From a virus, in IMG/VR virus record IMGVR_UViG_3300021963_000559, positions 1 to 26,601 of that record: DNA of 26,601 nucleotides; one strand, given 5' to 3'. Made by a program: the position numbers and the translations under genes. This document shows positions 15,042-16,661 of this stretch, one piece after another (within the stretch, counting starts at the first letter, position 1; every line of letters begins with the position of its first letter). The notes beneath the pieces were generated by a model. The model was not told the origin of the DNA. It was given only the letters and a program-made list of their open reading frames with translations, and made no database searches.

Positions 15042-15557
15042 TTACACCTTTCTTAGAGATTCCATAAACTCATTTAACGCATCATCTGCATCCCCCTCAT
15101 CTTCCCTAGTCACATTTTGGATGTGTTCTACAGAAATAATAGGGGCACGAGAGGATTCAAAAGGAGCCAGTTTGTCAGCAATCTTGGCTTTGTCCTTGAT
15201 ATCTAGTTCATCAGACTGCATGGCATCAATCAAGACTTCCATGGCAGTTTTAAGGGGTGGCAATCCACGGGAGGTACGCTCATCGTTTAGCTTGTTAAAC
15301 AAAGCACCATATTCGGTAACCTTGTTAACTATAGATTTTGGGCGACCACCCGTTGCCTTTTGTGACCGAGGCGTAAAGTTGGTCATGTCAAACTCATCCA
15401 CCACAGGGACAGTCTCAATGGCTTTAGGTTCAATTTGACCAGTGGCTAGTTTCATGGCTTTTTTCTGCGCTCGTCTAACTTTGGCGTAATCACGGGCTTT
15501 CTGTTTATCTTCTTCAGAATTAACAGTTGAGCCTTCAGGTCTTATTTCGTCAAACAT
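15042..15557 (-). CDS. Probable terminase small subunit (171 aa)
   Basis: The start at 15557 follows AAAGGGTATGCA and lies inside the end of the acetyltransferase-like gene. A basic N-terminus (ARDYAKVRRAQKKAMKLA) is followed by a GGRPKSIVNKVTEYGALF segment and a C-terminal block AMEVLIDAMQSDELDIKDK then AKIADKLAPFES. The block of a short helix, an acidic turn and a second helix ending in a proline is typical of small terminase subunits of short-tailed phages. The acidic end (EDEGDADDALNEF) may contact the motor. It would recognise the packaging site. No textbook helix-turn-helix is clear, so this is a moderate call. Confidence 0.6.
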   Translation of the reverse strand: MFDEIRPEGSTVNSEEDKQKARDYAKVRRAQKKAMKLATGQIEPKAIETVPVVDEFDMTNFTPRSQKATGGRPKSIVNKVTEYGALFNKLNDERTSRGLPPLKTAMEVLIDAMQSDELDIKDKAKIADKLAPFESSRAPIISVEHIQNVTREDEGDADDALNEFMESLRKV

Positions 15558-16081
15558 TGCATACCCTTTTCAGTTCTAATCCAAGCATATGAGCCATTCA
15601 CAGTGAACCCACGTTTTTTGTGGATCTTCATAAACCCATTATGTTCGGTACGAATAGAAGTAGAACATACCACGGGTATACCCCATCGGTGTGCCCACAG
15701 TATATGTTGGTCAATCATCTCATTAATTAACCTGACACGCAAGCGAGGGCTTAATTGTAGGTCAACATGGTGGAATTTGGCATTAGAGATTTCTTCATTG
15801 GCATAGGTGGTATACCCACCCCTATCAAACCAACAGTACCCAAGAAGGGCATTTTCAGCAGCGTCACCTATAAAGGTTTTAACAAGCTTGTCCCCACGGC
15901 AGACAGCAATAAACTCTTTGCTCTTGTCAAACACTTGGACTGTAGTGGCCACAGTAACGTGCTTGCGGAACACTGTTTTGTCCCTAGTCAATATGCCATC
16001 AGCCTCATGCCCAAAGATTGAGTCTGCCATGTCCACAATATCATCCACATCATGCAGTGGGTGCGCCAATGTCCATTCCAT
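15542..16081 (-). CDS. GNAT-like acetyltransferase, first gene of the late operon (179 aa)
   Basis: The start at 16081 follows AGGAATAGC. The C-terminal half carries the GNAT pattern: strands with HHVDLQLSPRLRVRLINEMI, then HRWGIPVVCSTSIRTEHNGF, then MKIHKKRGFTVNGSYAW, in which an Asn-x-x-x-x-K-x-h-x-x-x-Gly-Phe ending is the usual acceptor-side motif. The fold uses acetyl-CoA to acylate amines. The full acetyl-CoA pyrophosphate loop (Q/RxxGxG/A) is not obvious, so it may be degenerate. Small GNAT-like proteins are recurrent in phage genomes near terminase genes. Target unknown. Its 5' leader is unusually rich in inverted repeats. Confidence 0.68.
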   Translation of the reverse strand: MEWTLAHPLHDVDDIVDMADSIFGHEADGILTRDKTVFRKHVTVATTVQVFDKSKEFIAVCRGDKLVKTFIGDAAENALLGYCWFDRGGYTTYANEEISNAKFHHVDLQLSPRLRVRLINEMIDQHILWAHRWGIPVVCSTSIRTEHNGFMKIHKKRGFTVNGSYAWIRTEKGMQCLTK

Positions 16082-16098
16082 GCTATTCCTATAAAAGT

Positions 16099-16200
16099 GT
16101 TGGGACTCAATTTGGTCTTCAGCTAGGCAAGATGGAAAGCCAGAAAAAATCTTGCATCGACATCCTTGAGTGCTGGCTTAACGTCCCAACAAACAAATTG
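16099..16200 (-). ncRNA. Pseudoknot-capable 5' leader of the late operon (candidate)
   Basis: Immediately upstream of the acetyltransferase-like gene, five perfect inverted-repeat pairs fall within about 100 bases: GTTGGGAC 16099-16106 with GTCCCAAC 16183-16190; CAATTTG 16108-16114 with CAAATTG 16194-16200; GCAAGAT 16127-16133 with ATCTTGC 16149-16155; AAGCCAG 16137-16143 with CTGGCTT 16173-16179; and ACTCAA 16105-16110 with TTGAGT 16166-16171. The third and fourth cross, which would make an H-type pseudoknot inside the outer stem; the second and fifth would be alternatives. It would be read on the minus strand. Confidence 0.5.
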
Positions 16201-16202
16201 TA

Positions 16203-16260
16203 GTCCAGAAAAGTTTTAAACAAAAATTTTTATACAGGAACACTTATACAGAATTATCCA
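16203..16260 (-). promoter_or_regulatory. Possible promoter of the late leftward operon
   Basis: On the minus strand the sequence gives TTGTTT, 15 bases, then TACAAT near 16198-16225, and further upstream two TGTATAA boxes. All are plausible sigma-70 elements and all lie just before the inverted-repeat leader. None has both boxes at full consensus, so the exact start is not fixed. The DnaA-like sites overlap this region. Confidence 0.35.
16207..16231. other. AT-rich tract beside DnaA-like sites (possible unwinding element)
   Basis: Between the leader and the DnaA-box-like cluster lies a 25-base tract of almost only A and T (AAAAGTTTTAAACAAAAATT and on). It touches the first TTATACAG site. 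AT-rich unwinding elements flank DnaA-box arrays at bacterial origins. Function here is inferred only from position. Confidence 0.4.
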
Positions 16261-16262
16261 CA
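16230..16262. other. DnaA-box-like cluster (candidate replication origin)
   Basis: Three sites in the same orientation: TTATACAGG at 16230-16238 (7 of 9 to TTATNCACA), TTATACAGA at 16244-16252 (8 of 9), and TTATCCACA at 16254-16262 (9 of 9, the consensus DnaA box). The first two are 14 bases apart. The perfect box in a 1-kb non-coding region at the divergence of leftward and rightward genes fits an origin that uses host DnaA. The phage's own replication protein gene lies at 24739-25491. Confidence 0.5.
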
Positions 16263-16280
16263 GGATATCCTCTTTACATA

Positions 16281-16297
16281 GGGGTAAACCCTAATAG
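16281..16297. promoter_or_regulatory. Operator-like motif copy 1 (GGGGTAAACCCTAATAG)
   Basis: This 17-base site differs by one base from the copy at 16966-16982 and by two bases from the reversed copy at 26003-26019. It contains GGGT-AA-ACCC dyad symmetry. It lies just upstream of the leftward promoter area and 19 bases from the perfect DnaA box. Confidence 0.5.
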
Positions 16298-16619
16298 AAT
16301 GATTACGGGGCCATCATCCAGCCCTTGGGAAGGCAGGTAGCTTACCGACCCAGATAAACGTACTGAATCTATCAGTCTCTCTAGTAAGCAATGAACGGGA
16401 ACATACAGGTAGAGCCCTCAAGGGTTAAGTTAGATAAACAAGGTGCTACTTCTTTGAAAGAAGAAAAAACAGTGGATGCCATAGTTCGTCCACAGCTAAC
16501 CATCACACAACCCCTCTCCCTACTAGTTATCAAGCACTGTTGTTTTTGTACAACCTAAAAAGTTTTAGAAAAATTTCGGGGATGGGTGAGTGGGCCCCCC
16601 CTTTTGGGGCTTGTTCCAG

Positions 16620-16661
16620 TGCTACCCCCCCCCAGGTTCTGTGTGGCATAGGGGGGCAGCA
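16620..16661. repeat. C-tract/G-tract hairpin
   Basis: TGCT at 16620-16623 pairs with AGCA at 16658-16661, and C6 of the nine-C run at 16625-16633 pairs with G6 at 16651-16656, giving a 10-pair stem with one mismatch and a loop of about 20 bases. A smaller CCCC-TTTT-GGGG hairpin lies just left at 16598-16609. They could act as terminators, as structured origin elements or as polymerase pause sites. Confidence 0.45.

Follow-up and report, generated by a model that had tools for sequence, protein, structure and literature searches.

The minus strand of the window, by which we mean the whole 26,601-nucleotide stretch of viral DNA analysed here, carries at 16099-16190 a 92-nt pseudoknot RNA (P1 to P1') that resembles Atu_At1 (RF02496) and that, judging by covariation in alignments of 71 and 32 sequences, almost certainly represents a real structured RNA class. 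Comparison of homologues shows the fold to be a nested stack of helices P1, P3 and P4, whose terminal loop pairs back, through helix P2, to the internal loop between P1 and P3. We favour the reading that it is a stand-alone phage small RNA of about 92 nt, putatively acting in trans, and consider its distant homology to Atu_At1 very probable. The RNA is compact, occurs in many phage records and in none of the sampled bacterial genomes, appears tied to an expressed, unexplained small RNA of Agrobacterium and rhizobia, and supplies the pseudoknot missing from the description of that RNA.

The element had initially been noticed for five perfect inverted-repeat arms of at least 6 bases within 16099-16200, and all five are indeed found: one of 8 bases (16099-16106 with 16183-16190), one of 6 (16105-16110 with 16166-16171, containing helix P3a) and three of 7 (16108-16114 with 16194-16200, 16127-16133 with 16149-16155, and 16137-16143 with 16173-16179). 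When these 102 bases are shuffled with their dinucleotides preserved, 1.2 such arms are found on average, and five or more with P=0.006; any crossing pair of 7-base arms occurs with P=0.008, while the combination of a crossing pair with an enclosing 8-bp arm, as had been claimed and as is present here, was seen in 0 of 5000 shuffles. That said, the pseudoknot-free fold of the window sequence alone reaches z=-2.26 against shuffles, which is only a modest gain, and the case for structure therefore rests on the comparison of relatives. The arm 16108-16114/16194-16200, which had been proposed to compete with the others, did not survive this comparison: it lies outside the covarying structure and overlaps the probable -10 box TACAAT (16202-16197), so that its upstream strand would stay untranscribed.

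In the minus-strand transcript, P1 is formed by GTTGGGAC (16183-16190) and GTCCCAAC (16099-16106), with double-sided changes in 8 of 8 pairs and 96% of pairs formed. The crossing helix P2 joins AAGCCAG (16173-16179) to CTGGCTT (16137-16143), P3a joins TCAA (16166-16169) to TTGA (16107-16110), P3b joins GTC (16159-16161) to GAC (16115-16117), and P4 joins GCAAGAT (16149-16155) to ATCTTGC (16127-16133), with double-sided changes in 6 of its 7 pairs. A U-rich loop (16144-16148), in which TTTT is invariant among the aligned homologues, connects P4 to the 3' strand of P2. The covariance model R1 matches the window at 16095-16191 with 111.1 bits (E 3e-30). Unsupervised covariation, calculated as mutual information with average-product correction over 82 sequences, ranks P1, P4 and P3 highest, nearly all of them with at least 96% standard pairs. 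In the alignment of 71 phage sequences, on which the assignment of P1, P3a and P4 is based, 96.6% of the paired cells are standard, double-sided changes occur in 20 of 26 pairs, and the 389 double-change cells observed, against 118 in shuffled alignments, exceed all 500 shuffles as well as all slides; pair counts in the 32-sequence alignment likewise lie above shuffles and slides. P3a, in particular, appears among homologues as TCAA/TTGA, TCGA/TCGA, TTGA/TCAA and ACGA/TCGT. The three pairs of P3b (GUY/RAC) fit all sequences and are 100% paired, with a single variable pair (C-G, U-G or U-A) matched by 1 of 500 shuffles, which, taken alone, is weak support.

P2 is almost fixed as AAGCCAG/CUGGCUU in the common form of the RNA, and variants were therefore sought on purpose. 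About eight differing, complementary forms were found among homologues, including AAGACAG/CUGUCUU, AAGCUCG/CGAGCUU, AAGUCAG/CUGACUU, AAGUUAG/CUAACUU, AGGCAG/CUGCCU, AGGCAAG/CUUGCCU and AGGUAG/CUACCU, and in a few members (loci L126, L152 and L188) one P2 pair is broken. Taken separately over 32 sequences, P2 is 99.1% paired, with double-sided changes in 5 of 7 pairs and 27 double-change cells against 5.1 after shuffling, a value reached in 0 of 500 shuffles. With only about 3 nt in the loop 3' of P2', there may be strain on the outer A-U pairs of this helix. By this comparison of sequences we regard the pseudoknot as established as a pairing, which is distinct from its three-dimensional form. 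The preliminary description had proposed looking for conserved pairing in related phages, and compensatory changes are present in all four main helices; homologues that kept the genes and lost the pairing were not encountered. Moreover, G-U pairs are frequent in the given orientation, which points to a minus-strand transcript. The natural compensatory variants of P2 also make the function of the RNA directly testable.

Where does this RNA occur? The first late gene of the window (15542-16081, minus strand; 179 aa), which by eye has the look of a GNAT-type acetyltransferase and has no PHROG match, was used as a query for relatives and led to 80 viral loci, 12 of which carry the pseudoknot RNA upstream. 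A DNA pattern built from the conserved RNA core retrieved many more viral contigs, for a set of at least 86 distinct sequences, and the phage members score 60-112 bits with R1. The same pattern gave 66 matches in bacterial genomes, which were discarded as they have no fold and score at most 21 bits, and R1 had no match in 289 Alphaproteobacteria and 300 Burkholderiales genomes. Likewise, blastn of cultured phage records returned none with the RNA, and the first plasmid matches (Mesorhizobium, Bradyrhizobium) proved to lie inside coding genes and not to be homologues. In the records sampled there is one copy per record. No neighbouring protein is shared consistently, with no cluster present in more than 21 of 85 loci, the flanks being incomplete.

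The probable -10 box TACAAT (16197-16202, minus strand) is separated from P1 by 6 nt; as it lacks a good -35 box, a strict promoter scan did not report the site. Of the 49 members without a preceding element of another structured family, termed family B here, 53% have a strong -10 hexamer shortly before P1, mostly at a distance of 5-7 nt, as compared to 1% of control positions and 0 of the 36 members that follow a family B element. P1 is thus the probable point at which transcription begins. At the other end, a Shine-Dalgarno sequence AGGA (16087-16090) begins 8 nt past the end of P1' and serves the ATG at 16081; it is kept in close relatives both with and without the RNA. This layout bears out the suggestion that a probable promoter precedes the element and that the first late gene follows it. 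Further upstream on the minus strand, a block at 16220-16420 is conserved in close relatives (L014, L019) in the order CTACCTGCCTTCCCAAGGGCTGGATGATGGCCCCGTAATC, the DnaA-box-like CCTGTGGATAA and TATAAAAATTTTT...AAAACTTTTT, and a block GGGGGGCCCACTC-ACCCATCCCC-AAATTT-AAAACTTTTT at 16565-16640 recurs upstream of the same gene in the distant loci L026, L045, L048 and L068, where it is possibly a second promoter or control region.

The genes downstream of the RNA vary and include acetyltransferase-like, terminase, DNA polymerase and other genes, the terminase and DNA polymerase neighbours having been named by eye from sequence. Several loci (L096, L098, L134, L166, L179, L181, L182, L192) carry the RNA in antisense orientation, flanked by or adjoining genes of the opposite strand; there it has a -10 box of its own and is not directly followed by a sense gene. 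In the terminase group (L084, L086, L102, L144, L156) and in the DNA polymerase group (L091, L138, L178), a start codon follows about 0-10 nt after the RNA with no clear Shine-Dalgarno sequence. Such close start codons could mean either that initiation proceeds without a Shine-Dalgarno sequence or that the RNA influences translation in a way that went undetected, and a cis effect is possible in these two groups.

Compared across relatives, the RNA shows itself to be an accessory cassette that trades places, within one slot, with tRNAs or other structured RNAs. Namely, with promoter, ribosome site and gene all kept, the slot is empty in the close relatives L014, L019 and L023 and holds a tRNA-Asn in the close relative L079. 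Other close relatives (L009, L011, L012, L018, L006, L010) carry other structured RNAs there, and the more distant L022 and L029 carry tRNA-Asn/Thr pairs. In the DNA polymerase lineage, the RNA is inserted where the stop and start codons of many relatives touch or overlap (L273, L278, L282), and other loci of that lineage have unrelated hairpins, or a tRNA T-arm-like RNA (L292), at that junction. Slot exchange, diverse neighbours, antisense copies and the single copy per record together argue for a stand-alone RNA gene and not a dedicated regulator of the late operon. Consequently, we do not retain the proposal that the RNA times late gene expression, given the 12 of 80 same-gene loci that have it, the varying contents of the slot and the other genes downstream elsewhere; nor does that of an antitermination leader of the late operon agree with an RNA that is missing or replaced in relatives and that also precedes terminase and DNA polymerase genes.

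Several further structured RNAs were seen in the neighbourhood. Family B, which has no Rfam match, has as its conserved frame AACACG-CA-UGGGGAUUG ... CAGUCCCCA-GC-CGUGUU, which encloses inserts of about 20-130 nt, and occurs at about 40 loci, among them L006 (1059), L010 (2848), L027 (2833), L090, L099, L121 and L159. Its GGGGA/UCCCC stem has compensatory forms, while the inserts differ greatly and recur in other places (for example GGTTCATGTGGTTGCCGC... and GTTTTAATGCTGGCTCTTGTCGCCC...). Family B often abuts the pseudoknot RNA directly, and TGTTGG is common to both. Some inserts (L006 1059-1160, L060 2821-2910, and L292 upstream of 1501) contain a tRNA T-arm-like stem-loop such as GTGGGTTCGATCCCCAC; they are not tRNAs by ARAGORN and are possibly tRNA mimics. 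The slot upstream of the first late gene also holds family C (TTGTCTTGGACACGCAGACATTAAAGCGAAGTGGGG...; L009, L011, L012) and family D (GTTGGTTAAGC...GTAGGGCTGGGGGTTCTTGGTCGCCAAC; L006, L010, L037, L043), both structured-looking and unmatched, with GGUUAAGC common to family D and the pseudoknot RNA. Two possible resemblances, that of family B to integron attC sites and that of AGGAUGUUG to the GTPase centre of 23S rRNA, were dropped for lack of evidence.

How might such an RNA work? If it is a small RNA in its own right, the late promoter would start transcription at P1, the folded RNA would persist or be released as a separate molecule, and it would then act in trans. More speculatively, it might bind a host factor, whether to compete with a host RNA of the At1 type or to block a protein of host defence or RNA processing. 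We put forward this putative host-factor or counter-defence role only tentatively: it is faintly suggested by the RNA being accessory, absent from the sampled bacterial genomes and, in the incomplete flanks, accompanied by no obvious partner gene. A broader and equally speculative version, which we think rather doubtful, is that a large group of phages holds a dedicated slot or array of interchangeable structured RNA cassettes (the pseudoknot RNA, the ACACG-CAUGGGG framed RNAs with their varied inserts, others and tRNAs), fired from phage promoters as trans-acting effectors against host factors or defences, with the pseudoknot member mimicking or displacing the At1-like host RNA. If phages do carry exchangeable RNA effectors beside their tRNAs, this would be a little-explored layer of phage-host conflict.

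It should be noted, against the small-RNA reading, that many members, including that of the window, lie directly upstream of a sense gene. The RNA could then be a cis-acting 5' leader of the late mRNA, that is, an element acting on translation, stability or antitermination from the beginning of the transcript, with P1 beginning about 6 nt past the -10 box and ending 8 nt before the Shine-Dalgarno sequence, and with several members placed 1-10 nt before a start codon that has no clear Shine-Dalgarno sequence. However, a leader should stay with its operon, whereas this RNA is missing from most same-operon relatives, which have tRNAs or other RNAs instead; its downstream genes are many and unrelated, no sense gene comes directly after its antisense copies, and at least 36 copies are directly preceded by another RNA element and not by a promoter. 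We consider a leader function unlikely as a general account of the RNA, and it is the small-RNA reading that is further supported by the Agrobacterium C58 relative, which is similarly placed upstream of a gene and accumulates separately.

A new self-cleaving ribozyme, which could separate tandem RNAs, is an improbable alternative that the architecture nevertheless brings to mind, as the pseudoknot is compact, the joining segments are conserved, the helices vary freely and the terminal loop reaches back to pair with an internal loop of the nested stack. Twister ribozymes have a terminal-loop-to-internal-loop pairing of this kind in a nested stack. Extra linker stems in L004, L085, L121, L128 and L180 and the tandem arrangement with structured neighbours would also fit, but among the members searched there is no Rfam ribozyme or riboswitch match up to E 10, and the RNA that accumulates from the relative in Agrobacterium has 118 nt and covers P1 to P1' (PMC3738593). 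Even less probable, in our estimate, is mimicry of a type III toxin-antitoxin RNA, namely by a ToxI-like pseudoknot inactivating a host toxin in the manner of PhiTE: the RNA is a phage-borne pseudoknot, and PhiTE is a precedent for RNA mimicry (PMC3475682), yet the unit is a single one of about 92 nt, present once per record with no short tandem repeats, its fold differs and has an enclosing stem, and it has no Rfam antitoxin match. Finally, chance inverted repeats or a DNA-level structure with no RNA role may be set aside almost entirely. Short perfect arms are common, with 1.2 expected here, but neither explanation would account for compensatory changes throughout the main helices or for the strand-specific G-U pairs.

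Among known systems, phage tRNA genes share with the RNA its slot upstream of the first late gene (relatives L022, L029, L079, L082), but the pseudoknot RNA has no cloverleaf, and ARAGORN finds no tRNA or tmRNA in the window. The ToxI antitoxins and the PhiTE mimic are likewise small pseudoknot RNAs and indicate that a phage can use an RNA decoy (PMC3475682); ToxI antitoxins, however, consist of short tandem repeats beside a toxin gene and have another fold. GOLLD and ROOL RNAs are, like the present one, phage-borne, structured and non-coding, lie near tRNA genes, contain pseudoknots and have no known function (PMC12286853), but they are hundreds of nt long, and there is no sequence or Rfam match to them.

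The closest comparison is with Atu_At1. At the gathering cut-offs of Rfam 15 the pseudoknot RNA has no match. At permissive thresholds RF02496 is the best Rfam match of three members (L109 with 26.5 bits, L282 with 22.2 and L088 with 15.8), all of them below its gathering cut-off of 60 bits, while the window member has no match to RF02496 even there. The three alignments cover the model at full length (1-108), on the same strand, with the exact boundaries of the RNA and with P1, P3 and P4. The reverse search fails, as R1 scores the loci of Atu_At1 at only 8-14 bits and so does not find Atu_At1; for this reason we take the homology to be distant and keep the phage RNA outside the Rfam family. 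Rhizobiales Atu_At1 sequences share the crossing P2, which the Rfam model lacks; in these sequences it is 99.2% paired, with two covarying pairs. Both RNAs have the same order of elements, P1, P2, P3, P4, U-rich loop, P2', P4', linker, P3' and P1', and the same core, GUYAA...GGAUGnCGA...UUUUUC...UUUC. The GAU/CAA internal-loop letters of the C58 Atu_At1 and of the phage RNAs are alike, and the C58 sequence GGGATGACGAACGCGATGGTTTTTCCGGTTTC closely resembles AGGATGTCGACGCACAGATTTTTCTGGCTTTC of phage locus L109.

The C58 copy (NC_003064.2, 55183-55264, minus strand) lies inside the ncRNA pAT_55271R, a stable RNA of 118 nt, or about 140 nt by Northern, with ends determined by RACE (PMC3738593); it starts 3 nt ahead of P1 and spans P1 to P1'. 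The same strand carries ligD 44 nt downstream of this Atu_At1. As a side observation, Atu_At1 stands just upstream of ligD, the ligase of non-homologous end joining, both in C58 pAt (L402) and in R. rhizogenes pTi (L406). Our literature search found no function for Atu_At1. Like the phage RNA, it is stand-alone and intergenic, with a 5' end near P1 (in the phage case a probable one). The phage RNA differs in its shorter P3a, its 7-bp P2 and a linker that lacks a fixed hairpin, and also in location, since it occupies late or intergenic slots of phages, whereas Atu_At1 resides on chromosomes or plasmids of Rhizobiales and relatives. In other words, Atu_At1 of Agrobacterium and rhizobia is the known part, and what looks new is a phage branch of this uncharacterised kind of RNA.
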